Assembly: GCF_022602565.1 (NCBI RefSeq)
Contig: NZ_JALBCV010000015.1
Coordinates: 1-64,000, forward strand
From: Rosenbergiella metrosideri
GTDB taxonomy: Bacteria; Pseudomonadota; Gammaproteobacteria; Enterobacterales; Enterobacteriaceae
Direction: 5' to 3'
Length of the DNA stretch: 64,000 bases
The translations under genes were made by a program, and so were the position numbers. A model generated the notes under the pieces. The model worked only from the letters and a program-made list of their open reading frames with translations, had not been told where the DNA came from and made no database searches. Below are positions 5,946 to 22,564 of this stretch, piece after piece. The first letter of the stretch is position 1. The number at the start of each line of letters is the position of its first letter.

Positions 5946-6896
5946 ATGTCATCTGGCGCTAAAGTAACGGTTGCTTACACCCGTGAGACAACCCCCGGCA
6001 CAACCCCCGCAAGCGCGACATGGGATATTTTCCGTCGCACGTCTTTCGGTGTTAAGCCAACGCAAAACATGAACGATAATAACGAAATCGGCGGCACTCG
6101 GATGGCTCAGGGGCGAACCCCCGGAACAACCGATGTAGGCGGTGACGTTGTATGTAAAACCCGATACGGACAGCACGATGCCTTTTTGGCTTCCTGCTTC
6201 GGTGCTGATTGGGTTAACGATACCCTGAATATGGGTAACGACCGCATTACCTTCTCATTGGCGACATTCGCCTCTGATATTGGCGTATCTTCAATCGCTA
6301 CCGGCTGTCAGGTTTCTACTTTACAAATCCAAATTCCGAACGATGGCGACGTGCAAACCACAGTCACCTTTGCTGGACTAGGTTGGCAGGATAAGGATGA
6401 TGGAACGAGCTACTTCGGCACGCCAACAGATATTGACGGTAAACTTCGCTACTCATTCAAAAACGTTACTGCCATTAGCCTAAATGGGGTAACGGGCGGT
6501 GATGGTTTCTGTGTCGATACCTTCAATATCCAGTTTGATAACAACATGCAGACGCAGCGTTGTATCGGTTCTGGCTCAGGTTTCGCGGGGGCAAATATCC
6601 CGACCACCTTCACGCCATCAGGTCAGATTACTCTGTCATGGTCGAAGAGCGCTTATGAAGCATGGAAGAAAACACTGACCGGCGAGGCTATGCCTTTCAG
6701 CTTTACCCTCGAGAATGCAGAAGGCTCTTATACCTTCAACTTCCCATCGGTTCAGGTTGACGGTGATTGGCCTGACGGTGGTAATACCGACATCATTCAG
6801 GTTCAGTTGAATATCACTGGCTCAGATACGCCGCCAACTATTACTCGTAAGCCAGTAGCATCACCAACTCCTGCGCCGACCCCATCCGGCGAATAA
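5946..6896 (+). CDS. Major tail (tube) protein
   Basis: A 316-residue protein beginning MSSGAKVTVAYTRETTPGTTP, a start typical of siphovirus tube subunits, with an N-terminal tube domain and a beta-rich remainder. It ends in a Pro-rich tail (PTPAPTPSGE) that may link a surface domain lost or absent here. AAGGAG ribosome site. It precedes the chaperone pair, as in lambda (V before G/T). Confidence 0.82.
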   Translation: MSSGAKVTVAYTRETTPGTTPASATWDIFRRTSFGVKPTQNMNDNNEIGGTRMAQGRTPGTTDVGGDVVCKTRYGQHDAFLASCFGADWVNDTLNMGNDRITFSLATFASDIGVSSIATGCQVSTLQIQIPNDGDVQTTVTFAGLGWQDKDDGTSYFGTPTDIDGKLRYSFKNVTAISLNGVTGGDGFCVDTFNIQFDNNMQTQRCIGSGSGFAGANIPTTFTPSGQITLSWSKSAYEAWKKTLTGEAMPFSFTLENAEGSYTFNFPSVQVDGDWPDGGNTDIIQVQLNITGSDTPPTITRKPVASPTPAPTPSGE

Positions 6897-6909
6897 TTTC
6901 AAACAATTT

Positions 6910-6945
6910 GCCCGTTACGCGCTGCATAGCGGATCGGGCCTTTTT
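6910..6945 (+). terminator. Intrinsic terminator after tail tube gene
   Basis: GCCCG and CGGGC close a stem that includes an inner CGCT/AGCG pairing, followed by TTTTT. It separates the highly expressed tube gene from the chaperone genes, a common way to lower chaperone levels. Confidence 0.75.
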
Positions 6946-6958
6946 ATGCAGAGGCACT

Positions 6959-7390
6959 ATGTTAATTATCAATAAACGTTTAGACGCAGATGAAACCCGC
7001 TGGATTGAGCCAATTAAAGGTCTAAAGTTAAAGGTCGGGAGTGTTGAGTCTCACGATTATAAGTCACGTCAGGCCATCGTCCGCCGCCATATTGACCGAT
7101 TGGACGCTGCGCTAAATGTTGGCACCAAGGAATTTAACCTATCGGCTATTGGTGATGTGGATTCACTCGACGACTTACTGCTCGATACCTGTTCGAAATA
7201 CTTATTGTTAGATTGGCAGGGCGTTGGTGAGATTGTGGGTGGCAAAGAAGTAGCCATTGAATACTCTCCGGAGAGTGGACTAGCCCTGCTGAAACAAAAA
7301 CCAGAGCTATACTGGTCAATCCTCAAGACCGGCTCTGACATCGCTCTAGGCATCAAAGAGAAGAAAGAAGAAGCAATGGGAAAGCCCTAG
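6959..7390 (+). CDS. Tail assembly chaperone, short form (lambda G equivalent)
   Basis: The start is chosen at 6959, just after the terminator U-tract and behind AGAGGC; the longer frame from 6908 would run through the terminator. The 143-residue product ends EEAMGKP at TAG 7388-7390. It is the abundant short chaperone that coats the tape measure protein during tail assembly. Its last codons contain the slip site that makes the longer form. Confidence 0.85.
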   Translation: MLIINKRLDADETRWIEPIKGLKLKVGSVESHDYKSRQAIVRRHIDRLDAALNVGTKEFNLSAIGDVDSLDDLLLDTCSKYLLLDWQGVGEIVGGKEVAIEYSPESGLALLKQKPELYWSILKTGSDIALGIKEKKEEAMGKP

Positions 7391-7722: not shown

Positions 7723-7805
7723 ACGCTTAACTCCGGGTTTCTTGCTTCCCTTTGCACTTAATTAACATTAGGATTGCCCTTAACTTTACTAATGGGGATT
7801 GGGAT

Positions 7806-8153
7806 GTGAGACAGTTATTCGGTATTGCTTTAATGGCGTTTTTTTTAACGGGATGCGCCACAAGATCAATTGATGATGCCCGCAAAAATGGCGAACAAGT
7901 GACACTGGAGTCAAAAAGGAGTGCTGATGAGGTATCTCAGTGCATTCTTTATAAATGGCAAAACAAAAAAGACATTATTGGCAGTCCTTTTGGGGCGACA
8001 ATACAGCCCTTACCTGGAGGGAGTACTGTTTACGTCGATGGTAATTTATTCGTAGCAGATGTTACTAAGAAGAATGAAGGGAATACACAAGTCAAGTTGT
8101 ACCTGCTAAACCTTAGGAATGGTTGGGTTGATTTAACCAAAACATGTTTATAG
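7806..8153 (+). CDS. Predicted lipoprotein inserted in tail operon
   Basis: The start is taken as GTG 7806 behind GGGGATTGGG, because it places a compact signal peptide ahead of the lipobox LTGC (Cys at residue 17). The longer frame from 7752 would bury it. The mature protein of about 99 residues is polar with two further Cys. A lipoprotein has no structural role in a tail; it is more likely a host-surface accessory such as a superinfection-exclusion factor. No family recognised. It is followed by its own terminator. Confidence 0.72.
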   Translation: MRQLFGIALMAFFLTGCATRSIDDARKNGEQVTLESKRSADEVSQCILYKWQNKKDIIGSPFGATIQPLPGGSTVYVDGNLFVADVTKKNEGNTQVKLYLLNLRNGWVDLTKTCL

Positions 8154-11200: not shown

Positions 11201-11506
11201 TTATTTGCCTTTGCTAAGGGTGCAGGCGTGTTTGGTGAGGCGGGACCAGAGGCAATTATGCCACTGACTCGAGGTAAGAATGGCTCCCTTGGTGTAAGGG
11301 CAATAGGTGCTCAATCCTCTACCGGTGGAGATATTAATCTCGGTGGCATTGTGGTTAACGTCGATAGCAGCGGCAAAGCATCCAACGGGTCATCTACCGA
11401 CGGACAAGGAATCGGCAAGCAAATCCAGTCTGCCGTAATCAACACGATAAACGAACAGGCAACCAAGCAGGGGACTCCACTCTGGCGAGCCATTAAGGGG
11501 CGGTAA
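8219..11506 (+). CDS. Tail tape measure protein (lambda H-like)
   Basis: The start at 8219 is preceded by GAGG; an in-frame ATG at 8201 abuts the terminator and is less likely. The 1095-residue protein has a Gln/Ala-rich coiled N-terminal third, then the TMP_2-type segment ([20 protein letters not shown]) with hydrophobic stretches. Further coiled coil follows, then a lambda-type C-terminal region with [19 protein letters not shown] and [15 protein letters not shown]. It sets tail length and helps DNA entry. Its last ~20 residues recur in the gene at 11850. Confidence 0.93.
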
Positions 11507-11841
11507 TGGATACATTCAGTTATTGCGTCCAAATAGGCGCGACAGGAACGGTGCCGGTGAAGGTTAATTCGGCACAGTTCGACGATGGTTACAAACAGGT
11601 GAGCGGAGTTGGCATTAACTCAGTCGCCGAAACGTGGAACCTTACGAGCAAGGGCCCGCTGGCAGATATGCAGAAGGTGAGGGATTTTCTCACCTCACAC
11701 TGTGCATCATCCTTCTACTGGAAGAACCCTTGGGGCGAAAACAAGATGTATCGAGTTAAAGCGGATTCTGTTACGCCTAATTTCGTTACCGGACAGTACG
11801 TAGAACTATCATTCACATTTGAACAGGCCTTTGCGCCTTAG
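11506..11841 (+). CDS. Minor tail protein (lambda M-like)
   Basis: A 111-residue protein directly after the tape measure gene, overlapping its stop by one base (TAATG). It has the typical VNSAQFDDGYKQ segment near residues 20-31 and ends YVELSFTFEQAFAP, as in Phage_min_tail proteins. M-type proteins join the tape measure to the tail tip complex. Confidence 0.8.
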   Translation: MDTFSYCVQIGATGTVPVKVNSAQFDDGYKQVSGVGINSVAETWNLTSKGPLADMQKVRDFLTSHCASSFYWKNPWGENKMYRVKADSVTPNFVTGQYVELSFTFEQAFAP

Positions 11842-11849
11842 GGGTAGGT

Positions 11850-12602
11850 ATGAATATCGAGCAAGAGATTAAAGGCATTATTGATAATGCGATGCCTTCA
11901 CACTCACAAAGCCAAGAGATAGATGAATTGCGCGGAAAAGTTGAAAATTTAACTAAGCTTGTTAACAGCTTAATTCTGACTAACACCAACAATAACAGCA
12001 ATATGTCCGATGCTAATTTCAAAATTAATCAAGGTGAGGTATTTATCTCTCCGGCGAATATTTATGGTGAAATTTCATGCTCTCGCGAATCACTAGCTAA
12101 AGAACTCCAGAAGGCAGTTTGTGAAACTATCAACCAGCAAGCTCAGTTCAAAGGTTCTCCATTGTGGAATGCTATTAATGGAGAGGGTAAGAAGTATGAA
12201 TTGCTATTTCGTGGCTTAGAAATTACGGGTGACAAAGTTGAGGCAGTTGTCGATGTTAGTGACGCAAAGCTACCCATGTATGCAGGCTTCAGGATTAACG
12301 TATCAGTCGATCGTAATCCTGACGATTGTTTACGTGCCTACGAAAAGGCCGCTATTGAGAAAGCCGCTTCAATCATTATCGATATCGCTGATGAATTGAA
12401 AAGTAATGGCAGATGTAGTGTAAAAACAACCTCAGTTGATTTCCAAATTGTGGATGGTAAAGGCCAGATGACATGCAGAATGGAGAGACCATCTGACCAT
12501 GAATTATCAGAAAAAATTAAAGAGCTTAAAGCTTATGATGTGGACGCTAAGCTAAAATTTATTGCAGCTTTAATGCCGACTGAGCTATTGAAAAATTTAT
12601 AA
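11850..12602 (+). CDS. Unknown phage protein carrying a tape-measure-tail motif
   Basis: A 250-residue protein not expected between M and L. Residues 22-45 look coiled coil. Residues 94-111 read INQQAQFKGSPLWNAING, closely matching [18 protein letters not shown] at the extreme C-terminus of the tape measure protein two genes upstream. The C-terminal half is an alpha/beta region without a known motif. The gene is visibly more AT-rich than its structural neighbours. A tail-associated accessory protein is possible; function unknown. Confidence 0.7.
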   Translation: MNIEQEIKGIIDNAMPSHSQSQEIDELRGKVENLTKLVNSLILTNTNNNSNMSDANFKINQGEVFISPANIYGEISCSRESLAKELQKAVCETINQQAQFKGSPLWNAINGEGKKYELLFRGLEITGDKVEAVVDVSDAKLPMYAGFRINVSVDRNPDDCLRAYEKAAIEKAASIIIDIADELKSNGRCSVKTTSVDFQIVDGKGQMTCRMERPSDHELSEKIKELKAYDVDAKLKFIAALMPTELLKNL

Positions 12603-12642
12603 CGAAACTTTTCATTAACACTCAAGTGTCCTGTAGATTATT

Positions 12643-13248
12643 TTAATTGCTTAATTTAACACTGTAATCAAATTGGCTATAGTTGCTGTCCCATTTTCCT
12701 TTATGATTTTTAGCAACATGATTAGTTATTATTTTCATAGCTAAGAGTAATATCATTAATAGCTTGTATTTGTTAAGTTCTGGTGGGGATTTTATGGTTA
12801 TTTCATACTTCAATACCTCATTTTCGTCGTTTATTCTCAGGGTGTGATCTTCTATCGGTGCTTCTGAGGTTTCATTAACCATATTTGTGGCAGACTGAAT
12901 TAGGCCAACCATATCATCTTCTTTTATATCATCTGGGTTAATTTTATGCGCAAAATCGTTACGTATAGTATTTATTTTACTGATTACCTTACAAACATTT
13001 CCGGGTAGACCTAATCGTTCAGCTATGGATATTTTTTTTGAACATTCAATCAATATTCTGTCTTTCTTATTGCTGCCAAAAATATTCGGGCAAGAAGTGC
13101 GAGCGCTTATCCACGAGTCTATTAAAAGCTCTGCAATCAAGTGAATTCGAAGAACCGCACCAACTATGTCATCAGTGTCTACTGCTTTGATGAGTGGTTT
13201 GCTTATGTCCTTATTTTGAAGGCTATCCATAAAAATCCTAGCATCCAT
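12643..13248 (-). CDS. HEPN-like protein on opposite strand inside the tail operon
   Basis: A 201-residue, mostly helical protein. R96-N-D-F-A-H101 matches the R-[NDH]-x3-H signature of HEPN domains, many of which are RNases in toxin-antitoxin or abortive-infection systems. Other helical families also carry RNxxAH, so nuclease activity is not shown. Strand, AT-richness and position mark it as an accessory gene that could be expressed in the lysogen. A GAGG site precedes the ATG. Its start is 20 bp from the start of the divergent 63-residue gene. Confidence 0.7.
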   Translation of the reverse strand: MDARIFMDSLQNKDISKPLIKAVDTDDIVGAVLRIHLIAELLIDSWISARTSCPNIFGSNKKDRILIECSKKISIAERLGLPGNVCKVISKINTIRNDFAHKINPDDIKEDDMVGLIQSATNMVNETSEAPIEDHTLRINDENEVLKYEITIKSPPELNKYKLLMILLLAMKIITNHVAKNHKGKWDSNYSQFDYSVKLSN

Positions 13249-13268
13249 ACGAAACCTCGGAGTAATTA

Positions 13269-13460
13269 ATGAGAGATGAAATTAAAAGTCCAATGATGAT
13301 TTATCTTAACGAAGATGGCGTATCGATAAATCATCAAGGTCAATATGCTGCGTATAACAGCGATGGAAAACTAAACTATTTCTTTGGCACAGATGACTCA
13401 TATTTACCTAAAAGAGTTATTTTCCACGATACAAGGAATAAGAGTAATCCTTCTGGCTAA
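13269..13460 (+). CDS. Small unknown protein, 63 aa, divergent from HEPN-like gene
   Basis: A GGAG site precedes the ATG. The product is short, polar, with several Tyr and Asp, and no signal peptide or recognised motif. It sits between the HEPN-like gene and a terminator before L, so it belongs to the inserted cassette. It could be a partner or antidote of the HEPN-like protein, but only position hints at that. Confidence 0.55.
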   Translation: MRDEIKSPMMIYLNEDGVSINHQGQYAAYNSDGKLNYFFGTDDSYLPKRVIFHDTRNKSNPSG

Positions 13461-13487
13461 CTTAAAGAATCCTGATATTTGATCAGT

Positions 13488-13509
13488 GCCGCCTCCGGGC
13501 GGTTTTTTT
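13488..13509 (+). terminator. Intrinsic terminator before minor tail gene L
   Basis: CCGCC-TCCG-GGCGG stem followed by seven T. The U-tract runs directly into ATGGGTGAAATATG, where GGTGA serves as ribosome site for L. Confidence 0.85.
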
Positions 13510-13520
13510 ATGGGTGAAAT

Positions 13521-14258
13521 ATGTCATTCACAGCAGACTTACAGCAATTAGAACCCGGGTCACTTGTTCAGCTCATTGAAGTGGACGGCACCGAGTTTGG
13601 CATGGATAAGATACTTCGATTCCATGCCTACAACATATCCGAAGAGGGCTGGCAGTCATTCGCAGCCGAAAACCTGCCTTCGATAATCTGGCAGGGCAAT
13701 GAGTATGACCCGCATCCCTATGAGCTACAGGGTGTTGCGGTGTCTAGTGAGGGTTCGCAGCCTACACCTACATTATCGGTCGGCAACGTGATGAACTACG
13801 TGACGGCGCTCTGTCTGCAATACGATGATATGGTGAAGGCCAAGGTCAAAATTCATTACACCTTAAAAAAGTATCTTGATGCAGCTAACTGGAAGCAGGG
13901 CAATCCAGACGCTAACCCCAATGAAGAGCGCGAGCAGCTTTTCTATATCAACGCTAAAACCTCGGAAACCCGGAGCCAATTAGACTTCGAGCTATGCTCA
14001 CCTTTTAATTTGCAATCCCTGCAACTGCCTACTCGGCAAATAACGCCCGTTTGTACCTGGTGTATGCGCGGCTGGTACCGCTCAGGAACCGGTTGTGATT
14101 ATGCGGGGAGTAATTACTTCACTAAGGATGGCGTGGCAACTGATGACCCGTCAAAGGATGTATGCGGGGGCCGATTGGATGACTGCAAACTCAGGTTTGG
14201 CGAAAGCTCGCCTCTTTCATTTGGTGGCTTCCCGGGGGCCAACTTACAAGGAAAGTAA
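13521..14258 (+). CDS. Minor tail protein L, iron-sulfur tail tip protein
   Basis: The 245-residue protein has an N-terminal tail-hub part and a C-terminal Cys-rich part: C178, C181, C192, C215 and C222 (CTWC, GC, VCGG, DDC). Lambda gpL binds a [4Fe-4S] cluster through such cysteines. It forms part of the tail tip below the tube. It is followed after 2 bases by the K homologue. Confidence 0.87.
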   Translation: MSFTADLQQLEPGSLVQLIEVDGTEFGMDKILRFHAYNISEEGWQSFAAENLPSIIWQGNEYDPHPYELQGVAVSSEGSQPTPTLSVGNVMNYVTALCLQYDDMVKAKVKIHYTLKKYLDAANWKQGNPDANPNEEREQLFYINAKTSETRSQLDFELCSPFNLQSLQLPTRQITPVCTWCMRGWYRSGTGCDYAGSNYFTKDGVATDDPSKDVCGGRLDDCKLRFGESSPLSFGGFPGANLQGK

Positions 14259-18600: not shown

Positions 18601-18827
18601 ATCAGGCTTTTATTGCTGACGGCACGATTACATCGGCAAAGATAGGCGATTATATTCAGTCAAATAACTATGTTGCGGGCAGTGTTGGTTGGAGAATCGG
18701 TAAAGATGGTTCATTCCAGATAAATGGTTCCAGTTCAAGCGGGGGGCGAACAGAAATAAACAATCAGCGTATAACAGTTTACGATGATAGTGGAAATATT
18801 GCAGTTGTTTTGGGGAGGAAAATATAG
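15633..18827 (+). CDS. Central tail fibre / host specificity protein J
   Basis: A 1064-residue protein with the lambda J start pattern (residues 1-60 include EAKLKMLLAVCEGEVEGT), a phage-tail_3 hub region, two fibronectin III-like domains around residues 610-810, a helical DUF1983-type segment and a distal beta domain. It forms the tail tip fibre and usually contacts the receptor. Lambda J is slightly longer (1132). GGTGA ribosome site. The stop overlaps the next GTG start. Confidence 0.93.
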   Translation: MAFIQDYPIHGRKGGAAKAHTPVEQADNLLSEAKLKMLLAVCEGEVEGTVTAQQIYLNDTPLANDDGSYNFTGVRWEFRRGTQDQEYIQGMPEIDNELSVGQTITTTNPWTRQFTDTSLDAIRIKLSVPAQYQYKDNGDMVGTVTEYAIDLSTDGGSYQTVVQGKFDGKTTSEYQRDHRIDLASGASSSTIRVRRITADSTDTKLVNAFKIFSFAEVIDSKLRYPNTSLLFIEVNSEQFTNGAPKVTVKMKGKLIRVPDNYDPATRTYSGSWSGNFKLAYSNNPAWVFYDLILDKIYGMGTRVDASMIDKWGLYQIAVYCDEMVSNGAGGTEPRFTCNAYVQSQEEAFTVMQDFAAIFRGITFWGNSQVIVNADVPVDDLEWTYTAANVVDGMFSYAGGSYKNRNTSCQVSYSDPANHYSDTIEAVYDSDLVERYGVQQMSLTAIGCTSQSEAHRRGRWALLSNSKDATVSFSVGLDGHIPLPTSIIGVADPYRAGKQNGGRISAVNGLAITLDREVDFAAGDRLILNLPDGTSQTRTIASIAADKKTITVNTAYKTDPVPGAVWIIDSDNLAAQQFRVTSITDNDDGTFTVAAVQYDPNKFRYIDDGVKIQPAPVTVTPTSVMSAPQNIVVTETDHIAQGVTVATLQASWDKVDGAINYSAQWRKDNGDWVNVGLTSAQGFSVQGIYAGAYDVRVRAINAADVSSPWGYAQGVALSGKVGKPGTPVNLLATDDVVWNINLTWAFPDGSGDTAYTELQVATTADGQNPQLLTLVPYPGSNYQHGPMPAGVRRWYRARIIDKIGNKGDWTTFVEGQSSIDTSEILSDITNQVLQSEAGKQLTAKIDTSIEGILQNALDNNAIVDHQMAVNGQNRADIISVKTTIADNDHAYAQKFDQIQATVGENTAAISEKATTQFSTDGTGSAVFSVNAGVTYKGTYYSAGMSIGVQVAGDGGVSSQVLFLADRFAMMSQAGGKTYSPFAVQNGQVFINQAFIADGTITSAKIGDYIQSNNYVAGSVGWRIGKDGSFQINGSSSSGGRTEINNQRITVYDDSGNIAVVLGRKI

Positions 18828-19090
18828 TGTCTAATTACGGAGTTCAAATATTCCTAGGCAATGCCGAGGTGGATGTAGTTAATTCTCTATCAGCCTCTTA
18901 CGTTCTTGGTGTCGTTAACATATCCACATCCTCAGGAAGAGTGAGCTATGACTTGCCTTCGGGGGCAACTCTAAAATACCTCCCAGACACTCAATCAATT
19001 GGATTGCCAAGTATTACGATAAATGGCGGGACAGCTACTTGGGAAGGTACTTCTGTGTCAGCCAGGCTTATTTTCTACTGCGAGTATTGA
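18827..19090 (+). CDS. Small tail-tip accessory protein (DUF6453-like), first copy
   Basis: An 87-residue protein starting at GTG 18827, inside the J stop (ATAGTG). It begins MSNYGVQIFLG, which resembles the start of the next gene (MSDYGFQIRRD). Such proteins follow J in many lambdoid phages; their role is not known to me. A beta-rich fold is likely. Confidence 0.65.
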   Translation: MSNYGVQIFLGNAEVDVVNSLSASYVLGVVNISTSSGRVSYDLPSGATLKYLPDTQSIGLPSITINGGTATWEGTSVSARLIFYCEY

Positions 19091-19091
19091 T

Positions 19092-19745
19092 ATGTCAGAC
19101 TACGGATTTCAAATAAGGCGAGACGATGGGAAACTTTTCGCCAGCCCCGACTTTACCCCATCTGTTCTATATGCAATAGAAAATATAACCGTTCCCGGGG
19201 CATTAACGCGGAAAGTAGTTAAAACTAATATTAAATATTCAAGCACGGCGTTGATATTCTATTACTGTACTAACTCTAATAAATCCGCACAGTTCTTTAC
19301 TGTTAACCAAGATGGTATGCTCGCTATTAATTGTCTAAATGAAGACTCGATGAATTTAGTGCTCTACATTTTTGATAACAAAGTTAGATACTCTACAGAT
19401 TATGGGATTTTTATTTATAGGAGCGGGTCTCTAATTTATACGGCAAATTGTATTCCTCTTGTGATAAAAACAGCGACGATACCTACCAACTCAAACGGGC
19501 CATCCGGGAAGTTTGCGGTAGCGTCTGGTCCAGCAGGAGATGCTGTGAATGTCATAAATGAAAAGGACGCCATTTATGTGGGGTTTGCTAATACAGCTAC
19601 TCAAAGCGGAATATCTAGCTCCGTGTGTGTGACATATAGCGTTGATCCATCATCTTCAGCAAGCATGGGAGAGGGGAACTATCCAGTTCAATATATAGAC
19701 CGCGCCTTATATGATAAATACAGAAAGTCAGCAATTGGCTACTAA
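19092..19745 (+). CDS. Tail-tip accessory protein (DUF6453-like), second copy
   Basis: The start is set at 19092 because it gives MSDYGFQIRRDDGKLF, matching the first copy; the frame from 19023 lies inside that gene. The 217-residue product is beta-rich, with no signal or membrane segment. It starts one base after the preceding stop and ends before a terminator. It may be part of the adhesion tip. Confidence 0.68.
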   Translation: MSDYGFQIRRDDGKLFASPDFTPSVLYAIENITVPGALTRKVVKTNIKYSSTALIFYYCTNSNKSAQFFTVNQDGMLAINCLNEDSMNLVLYIFDNKVRYSTDYGIFIYRSGSLIYTANCIPLVIKTATIPTNSNGPSGKFAVASGPAGDAVNVINEKDAIYVGFANTATQSGISSSVCVTYSVDPSSSASMGEGNYPVQYIDRALYDKYRKSAIGY

Positions 19746-21510: not shown

Positions 21511-21649
21511 CCATTCGAAATGGTAGCGTAACTGATTGATCTATATGTAGCATAATGTGGTATTTTATGGTGTAATATCGTATATTAACTAAGCAGAAAA
21601 CAAGCTTAAGTGGTTGTTTTCAAACGAAATAACAGATATAGAGCGACCA
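21511..21649 (+). other. Prophage/chromosome junction and accD leader
   Basis: This 139-bp AT-rich gap holds the small palindrome CCATT-CGA-AATGG right after the last phage stop, then TA-rich sequence with possible -10 elements (TATTTT 21561, TAATAT 21573) but no convincing -35. The right attachment site must be here or close by. The accD promoter may also lie here. Confidence 0.45.
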
Positions 21650-22564
21650 ATGAGCTGGATTGAACGCATTCTTAACAAAACAAATGTTGCCCCTGCCCGT
21701 AAGGCGAGTATTCCTGAAGGGATTTGGACAAAGTGTACAAGTTGTGGCCAAGTACTCTATCGTGCTGAGCTAGAACGTAATCTCGAAGTCTGTCCAAAAT
21801 GCGACCACCACATGCGTATGCATGGACGTGTCCGTCTGAATACTTTTCTTGATCAAGGAACCACTCTTGAGCTGGGAAGCGAATTAGAACCGCGTGACTT
21901 ACTTAAATTCCGCGATTCCAAAAAGTATAAAGACCGTATTATCGCGGCGCAAAAAGAGACCGGTGAAAAAGACGCTCTGATTGCAATGAAAGGGCAGCTT
22001 CATGGTATGCCTGTCGTGGCGGTTGCCTTTGAATTCTCCTTTATGGGGGGATCGATGGGTGCAGTCGTCGGAGCGCGTTTTGTAAGAGCTGCAGAACAAG
22101 CATTAGAAGATGGTTGCCCACTTATCTGTTTCTCCGCGAGTGGCGGAGCACGTATGCAAGAAGCGTTAACATCATTAATGCAGATGGCCAAAACCAGTGC
22201 AGCGTTAGCAAAAATGCGTGACCGTGGTTTACCTTATATCTCGGTACTGACTGACCCTACAATGGGTGGTGTTTCCGCAAGCTTTGCGATGCTGGGTGAT
22301 CTGAACATCGGTGAACCTAAGGCGCTCATTGGTTTTGCGGGTCCGCGCGTAATCGAACAGACCGTACGTGAAAAATTACCGCCAGGTTTCCAGCGCAGTG
22401 AATTCCTTATCGAAAAAGGGGCGATTGATATGATTATTCGTCGTCCTGAATTACGCTTTAAGCTGGCAAGCCTATTGGCGAAGATGATGAATCTTCCGGC
22501 TCCGCTTCCCGAAGAGCTGCCGCCACAGCCTGAGAAGGTTGAGCAAACGCCTAGCGACGCTTAA
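21650..22564 (+). CDS. accD: Acetyl-CoA carboxylase carboxyltransferase subunit beta
   Basis: AccD with AccA moves the carboxyl group from biotin-BCCP to acetyl-CoA, giving malonyl-CoA for fatty acid synthesis. The start at 21650 (MSWIERIL) gives 304 residues, the E. coli length; an in-frame ATG at 21614 would add 12 residues not found in the family. The zinc ribbon has C29, C32, C48 and C51, followed by the crotonase-type carboxyltransferase domain. It is essential, and here it is the first host gene after the prophage. Confidence 0.97.

Follow-up and report, generated by a model that had tools for sequence, protein, structure and literature searches.

The window analysed here is a 64,000-nt stretch of Rosenbergiella metrosideri DNA (RefSeq assembly GCF_022602565.1, contig NZ_JALBCV010000015.1, positions 1 to 64,000 of the forward strand) that carries a phi80-type prophage tail operon, and within this operon three accessory open reading frames (ORFs), P0001, P0002 and P0003, lie between the tail genes M and L (Table 1). 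A first-pass annotation made from the sequence alone had read them as an AT-richer three-gene unit with a HEPN-like gene on the opposite strand and as a candidate for an undescribed defence or exclusion system. The coordinates, the strands and the divergent gap were all confirmed, as was the base composition, with a G+C content of 0.384, 0.343 and 0.339 for P0001, P0002 and P0003 compared with 0.479–0.501 for H, M, L, K and J. Because each of the three matches a phage protein family (P0001, phrog_2735, E = 4.1e-13; P0002, phrog_5483, E = 3e-31; P0003, phrog_20632, E = 3e-8), they are not chance reading frames. We give a probability of roughly 0.87 to the reading that the last two genes form a Tai/Ati module, P0002 being a Tai-family HEPN defence protein and P0003 its antidote, which work together by the mechanism set out towards the end of this text. 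PADLOC-DB gave zero matches for P0001, P0002 and P0003; two Pectobacterium Tai genes were overlooked by PADLOC and DefenseFinder (PMC11364771).

Searching 50,697 phage records with P0002 by tblastn, we obtained matches to three records, two of phi80 and one of Salmonella phage SP-016. P0002 aligned with PHI80_63 (orf63, TaiEcA) at 35.5% identity over 199 aa (E = 2e-30) and with the SP-016 record at 28% (E = 1e-6), and P0003 aligned with PHI80_64 (orf64, AtiEcA) at 38% over 58 aa (E = 5e-13). The two phi80 genes belong to the same PHROGs as P0002 and P0003 and are likewise arranged head to head, their starts about 20 bp apart, the phi80 tai gene lying antisense near cos and facing PHI80_64. P0002 thus combines sequence homology to a tested Tai with the position of an antisense accessory gene in a phage late region, and P0003 combines homology to AtiEcA with a position facing tai in the sense of the late genes. 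According to He et al. 2024 (PMC11364771), TaiEcA blocks tail assembly of other lambdoid phages and AtiEcA is its antidote, as established by plaque assays, deletions, electron microscopy and western blotting. Phi80 without orf64 is crippled unless tai is broken, and orf64 placed in HK106 protects HK106 (PMC11364771). The DNA of a phage facing TaiEcA enters and replicates, tails are not made, and blocked entry was ruled out (PMC11364771); the earlier proposal of phage defence or exclusion therefore stands for defence, through the tested phi80 homologues, and falls for entry exclusion. Escape mutants map to the C-terminal region of J, as known for other Tai proteins (PMC11364771). The same paper describes tai and ati as a 'noncontiguous operon', with tai constitutive and ati among the Q-dependent late genes, and reports that Q overexpression lowers Tai; the suggestion that an opposite-strand gene here could be on in the lysogen gains from its phi80 homologues being a tested defence/antidote pair (PMC11364771). 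Binding of Tai to Ati was shown for TaiSalB/AtiSalB, and AtiEcA was characterized by function (PMC11364771). The label 'Fur-regulated' on phi80 orf64 is a record name only, and in the ten of 23 papers listed by our literature search for it there was nothing about that gene. Judged from these homologies, P0002 probably stops rival phages from building tails and P0003 probably protects the tails of the prophage itself. Since 57 non-redundant Tai and five Ati-like homologues at several hotspots have been reported (PMC11364771), a new Tai copy at a new place was to be expected, and the pair is not an undescribed system: it belongs to a family known since 2024, and what is new is its M–L location and its chimeric neighbour.

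Table 1. Genes and sequence features at the M–L junction of the prophage tail operon (window coordinates).
Feature	Position	Strand	Evidence or remark
Tail gene M, to the left of the slot	11506-11841	+	blastp to M of phi80, N15 and HK97
P0001, 250 aa	11850-12602	+	Tape-measure-end-like segment plus DUF1327; separate accessory gene
Segment like the C-terminal end of tape-measure protein H, P0001 residues 76-111	12075-12182	+	47% identity over 36 aa, E = 4e-8
DUF1327 domain, P0001 residues 114-186	12189-12407	+	PF07041, 27.6 bits (cut-off 25)
P0002, 201 aa, probable Tai-family HEPN defence protein	12643-13248	-	phi80 orf63 homology, phrog_5483, model and fold match
HEPN motif RNDFAH, P0002 residues 96-101	12946-12963	-	R96, N97 and H101 invariant in 20 aligned sequences
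Start-to-start gap of divergent P0002/P0003, 20 bp	13249-13268		18-21 bp in 27/28 relatives
P0003, 63 aa, probable Ati-family antidote, short class	13269-13460	+	phi80 orf64 homology, phrog_20632
Intrinsic-terminator-like site before L	13488-13509	+	Stem and T-run as in phi80 and L068
Tail gene L, right flank	13521-14258	+	72% DNA identity to phi80-type L (aligned part); proteins of relatives 80% identical
C-terminal hairpin of the prophage's own J	18753-18824	+	End type that Tai would be expected to read

The HEPN character of the 201-aa protein, proposed in the first-pass annotation, held at the level of the family, though no single Pfam cut-off was reached. In 20 aligned Tai sequences H36, E40 and K72 are invariant in addition to the motif residues, and RNxxxH, which follows the RX4-6H pattern of the HEPN superfamily, occurs in all 32 distinct Tai sequences. 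HEPN families also head the Pfam list when 20 Tai members are searched, with 8, 6, 6 and 2 members matched at E ≤ 1. An AlphaFold model of P0002 (pLDDT 87, pTM 0.85) found its best fold match in HepS of Gifsy-1 (PDB 9oik/9oij; Z 14.0, rmsd 3.3, 164 residues aligned, 17% identity; Foldseek E = 1.9e-3), followed by YggD (Z 11.7), MtlR (11.2) and the HEPN domain of sacsin (10.8), and by this predicted model P0002 has the HEPN fold. Because helical bundles reach Z of about 13 by their arrangement alone, the match of the HepS sequence to the Tai profile matters as well (E = 5.4e-7, profile positions 68–131, about 64 positions). The change in the HepS construct H105A falls on the motif histidine in the alignment. 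Like P0002, HepS has a HEPN fold with an RNxxxH motif, and one of its two PDB entries shows it with the lambda J tail tip; the two differ in that identity over the structural alignment is as low as given above, the profile match spans about 64 positions, and HepS is known here from its PDB titles. HepS is reportedly an abortive-infection protein. Together, the motif, the predicted fold and the HepS match support placing the Tai proteins in the HEPN family.

A HEPN protein next to a small gene could also be an ordinary HEPN toxin–antitoxin pair that maintains the prophage and has no link to tails, and HEPN–MNT toxins are indeed among the fold matches of P0002 (Z 8.1–8.8). We consider this highly improbable: the homologous phi80 pair acts on tail assembly via J (PMC11364771), a divergent order with the antidote in the late operon is unlike a toxin–antitoxin operon, and the long-class antidotes described below resemble the ends of J. 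The more specific assignment to HEPN–MNT was tried and dropped, P0003 having no MNT-like or other Pfam match (to E 10) and its model showing a small beta protein of four strands.

When viral and genome contigs were scanned, 18 + 10 + 3 + 20 = 51 further Tai loci emerged, designated here by L numbers, and among their Tai sequences 32 are distinct. L005 is the same Morganella contig as L066, and L011 the same Xenorhabdus contig as L064; of these four, L064 and L066 are the ones counted in the 51. Because many copies are near-identical, neither the 51 loci nor the 32 sequences are independent events. A viral-contig scan with P0002 alone gave 8 pattern matches with no relative among them, and a genome-contig scan with A4 gave 48, again with no relative among them. 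A divergent ORF faces tai in 50 of the 51 loci; in the remaining one, L044, an intact Tai frame stands beside a broken antidote remnant that can be read in pieces (upstream of 6001). With the start codon that fits the alignment, the starts of tai and ati are 18–21 bp apart in 27 of 28 loci and 74–76 bp apart in 20 SP-016-type loci; three genome loci have gaps of 23 bp, 23 bp and, with a TTG start, 2 bp. Where genes for lysis, packaging or structure, HNH or Q could be recognized, they were always on the other strand from tai. This holds for 31 of the 32 distinct sequences, with L064 uninformative and with HNH or Q as the only recognizable genes in L042, L065 and L066. At least four kinds of insertion site were counted: between M and L (the window and L050), between the lysis genes and cos (phi80, L037–L045 and SP-016), beside a V-like major tail gene (L046 and L049) and upstream of holin/lysozyme genes (L051, L057, L059 and L060). 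The proposed three-gene unit thus holds for the Tai/Ati pair, which moves together among unrelated phages, and not for P0001, which, in flanks of up to 6 kb, has a homologue at L050 alone among the 51 other Tai loci. The phi80 pair is present in 80 of 5426 Escherichia coli genomes, with DH5alpha, TOP10 and DH10B among the matches listed.

Two further observations concern the distribution of Tai and Ati genes. A 9,690-bp E. coli plasmid record, NZ_MN057686.1, encodes at 6447–6611 residues 1–55 of phi80 Tai with 100% identity. Besides its own short Ati, L045 carries at 6675–7034, by its lysis genes, a second, long-Ati-like gene (59% identity to the SP-016 antidote), which is perhaps a solo antidote against foreign Tai.

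Several points weigh against the assignment of P0002 and P0003 to a working Tai/Ati module. Identity to TaiEcA is only 35.5%, and we infer the activity of P0002 from homology; among ten phage Tai homologues tested, two were without activity (PMC11364771). No single Pfam HEPN model matched P0002 at its curated cut-off, the best being HEPN_RiboL-PSP (PF18735) at 21.1 against 28.4 bits. The Tai effect is explained as a direct block of tail assembly, with no RNase reported, so the HEPN site may not matter (PMC11364771); the word 'HEPN' is absent from the main text of the paper, which likens the logic of Tai to that of Tha. We found no convincing promoter for P0002, the region having 8 promoter-like sites where 7.5 are expected, and the best site just upstream of the gene scoring 9/12, and in L050, the other complete M–L cassette, the Tai frame ends at residue 170. 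The lack of a convincing promoter also speaks for a module that no longer works or is silent, a moron remnant that chance has preserved in an AT-rich slot. Decay does occur in the family, since the L050 Tai frame ends early and the L044 antidote is broken, and the M–L content is swapped often among close relatives. In the window, all three frames are intact, the motif residues are kept and the architecture of the pair is conserved over 32 distinct Tai sequences, which makes a defective module very unlikely, if a shade less so than an unlinked toxin–antitoxin pair.

We compared the antidotes with the ends of J. J was found in 16 of the 20 records searched (19 Tai records and L068), and most J ends were readable. 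Profiles were built from 16 ends, or from either of two types (DNG and GGG), with no Ati included, and run on the Atis and 2,524 other ORFs. The profiles exclude L060 and HK97, whose ends do not resemble the hairpin, L074 (its end equals that of L072/SP016), L072 (for which SP016 stands in), L045 (the ORF picked was not J) and second matches to the same J; the rows L075, L076, L083, L084, L085 and L089 are further Ati variants and, like the extra L045 gene, were not counted as background. With the SP-016-like J profile, six distinct long Atis scored 21.1–23.8 bits and L088 scored 11.8, compared with 10.2 for the best ORF unrelated to Ati; with the profile of the other J type, L051 reached 18.0, L057 14.6, L059 9.6 and L060 8.8 bits, compared with 5.2 for the best other ORF. 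The match lies within Ati residues 1–27 and aligns to the end of J. Scored directly against the J of their own phage, the long Atis of six SP-016-type records, which make up five distinct pairs, reached z 7.0–10.0, that of L051 6.0 and that of L057 3.3. Because the cognate J is rarely the single best J, the match is one of type and not of pair. Most long-class antidotes thus start with a stretch like the C-terminal hairpin of J, and since Tai escape maps to the C-terminus of J, decoy mimicry is the simplest reading for the long class.

The resemblance does not extend to every antidote. The L060 Ati gave no signal against the J of its phage, which does not end in a hairpin of this kind, and the long-class L064 and L065 scored low, at 2.9 and −0.1 bits (3 and 4 of 200 shuffles). 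For P0003, J mimicry was not significant: it scored 0.6 bits with the DNG-type profile (rank 44; 14 of 200 shuffles), with 6 of 200 shuffles for the GGG type, 20 of 200 for all J ends, and a pair score against its own J of z 0.5 (89 of 300 shuffles). The phi80 Ati was not significant either (69 of 200 shuffles, z −0.1), and the short-class Atis of L043, L046 and L049 gave z −0.4, 0.1 and 0.7; the short-class Ati of L050 gave z 3.4. A profile–profile comparison of the P0003 class with J scored 16.46, compared with a best of 14.67 in 200 column shuffles, over 14 columns and at an HHalign probability of 11%. For the short antidote of the window, a decoy mechanism is thus an extrapolation for which these data give a weak hint. 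Fold searches for Ati yielded no usable match (best Foldseek E of 0.69; no match with Z ≥ 5), and sequence searches did not locate the lambda J fragment of 9oik.

The 250-aa neighbour P0001 has its own connections to the tail. Its tape-measure-like segment matched an H-end profile at 28.3 bits (E = 1.9e-7), and H itself lies just upstream in the window; E. coli is among the control genomes in which a phrog_2735 search gave a match. L050 carries the whole cassette at M–L, with identities of 85–87% for P0001, 48% for Tai, 37% for Ati, 95% for L and K and 50% for M, and differences of this size indicate that the parts of the cassette have different histories. In L068 and L069, a gene at the same place shares nearly the same first 15 residues with P0001 and continues into an Ati-like domain, which in L068 scored 37.8 bits (iE 1.3e-10, profile excluding L068) and in L069, where the gene is cut by the contig end, was read by eye. 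L068 has DUF1327 as a separate ORF and no Tai match in 10.8 kb. In L085, the gp59-like neighbour of Ati combines a start resembling Ati (18.0 bits, iE 1.9e-4), a part like the J tail tip and an H-end-like tail, and 15 of the 51 Tai loci, L050 included, have a gene shorter than 450 aa in which some part resembles the H end. Because modules swap among such genes, P0001 may be a further tail-tip mimic. A J-like hairpin spotted by eye at P0001 residues 38–71 was dropped after scoring (4.6 bits, iE 2.7; 18.9 bits, E 0.2–0.4). As a separate observation, an 81-aa antisense ORF occupies the Tai position of the M–L slot in L068 (5837–6082) and has no Pfam or PHROG match.

Such findings leave room for all three genes being one system, with P0001 a co-factor or second antidote that Tai needs: the three-gene order recurs in L050, the P0001 scaffold carries an Ati-like domain in L068 and L069, and genes with a tape-measure-like end accompany Tai in the 15 loci just mentioned. 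We think this unlikely, given that P0001 has a homologue in a single other Tai locus, that its divergence in L050 is unlike that of Tai and Ati, that the phi80 neighbour orf66 is not the antidote to TaiEcA (PMC11364771), and that N15 has the H-end-like gp59 with no Tai match found there. From its sequence relationships, P0001 is probably another tail-tip-related accessory and not a needed part of Tai/Ati. We hold as a possible but rather doubtful extension that Atis are decoys copying the J hairpin, that P0001, phi80 orf66, N15 gp59 and their relatives are chimeras of Ati, J-tip and tape-measure-end parts that shield the tail tip of their own phage, and that Tai is a J-triggered, HepS-like RNase.

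The M–L junction is itself an occasional accessory site. A homologue of L was found in 48 of 394 Enterobacterales genomes, and the 30 L loci that were read are the best matches only, the window among them. M stands at most 62 bp before L in 25 of the 29 others, in agreement with the direct M-to-L order expected of lambda-type tails; three slots are filled (366 bp, 654 bp and 2.7 kb), and in one locus M was not found within about 3.4 kb. The slot being empty in most loci read, the cassette is not a fixed part of related tail operons. The terminator, which had been taken to close the cassette, belongs to the tail operon, because a matching stem and T-run stand in the 56-bp M–L gap of phi80, which is free of any cassette.

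Two of the filled M–L slots hold other genes. The 654-bp slot, in L149 (825–1279), carries a 77-aa gene with a motif resembling the tape-measure end (22.1 bits) and, antisense, a 74-aa gene of phrog_6806, and the 2.7-kb slot, in L151 (994–3720), carries opposite-strand HicB-like and HicA-like genes and a 457-aa protein, which we take to have a putative Fic motif. Elsewhere in the prophage of the window, a putative lipoprotein-like moron of phrog_914 (unknown function) lies directly before H (7752–8153). It has distant 95-aa relatives at the same place in L068 (45%) and L069 (37%), and in view of that distance the junction before H looks variable too. Two genes after J (18827–19745) match phrog_557 (outer membrane protein) and phrog_425 (membrane associated moron) and are the positional counterparts of N15 gp22 and gp23. 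What is presumably an accD-like gene (21614–22564) follows close behind the tail-fibre genes, so that the prophage probably ends near 21.5 kb.

Comparison with described systems sets the cassette in context. With phi80 Tai/Ati it shares homologous proteins, the head-to-head order, a gap of about 20 bp and a defence gene antisense to late genes; it differs in lying between M and L and not next to cos, in being preceded by P0001, and in sequence (35.5% and 38% identity). Tha of Staphylococcus prophages is a tail-activated HEPN RNase in which the histidine of RX4H is needed and which has an antisense antidote, Ith (PMC11087260). The likeness, compared by description, is of a phage-borne HEPN protein, an involvement of tail proteins and an antisense antidote that prevents autoimmunity; Tha is unlike P0002 in its 301 aa with an extra N-terminal part and its place in the cI region, and Ith in having its own promoter (PMC11087260). 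HK97 gp22 with the reverse moron gp23 likewise offers accessory genes in a tail operon, one of them on the opposite strand, with a terminator after them, but the genes are different and the HK97 slot is I–J. The N15 gp59/phi80 orf66 family has a part like the tape-measure end in common with P0001, C-terminal there and internal in P0001; its members lie near cos and are without DUF1327. Phi80 orf66 also matches Phage_Tail_Tip.

The mechanism that we propose follows the phi80 system. In the lysogen, Tai would be made from its own leftward transcript and await the J protein of an incoming lambda-like phage. On meeting the C-terminal end of J it would prevent the assembly of tails, as others have shown for TaiEcA, and RNA cleavage by the HEPN site, as in Tha, may contribute. 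On induction, late transcription would run rightward through M, P0001 and ati, opposing the tai transcript and making Ati, which by analogy with phi80 would neutralize Tai and let the prophage assemble its own J. P0001 would be a separate late gene of the slot, its scaffold being the one that bears an Ati-like domain in two relatives.

These results assign a prophage cassette that had no annotation to a tested defence family, with M–L as a new slot. Through its motif, its predicted fold and its match to HepS, Tai is linked to HEPN sensors concerned with the J tail tip. The presence of phi80 Tai/Ati in common cloning strains could affect phage work done there. The interesting part is the antidote, with Ati copying the J hairpin and Tai a J-triggered RNase, if true, and the J-like start of most long Atis offers a concrete, cheap route to the antidote mechanism.

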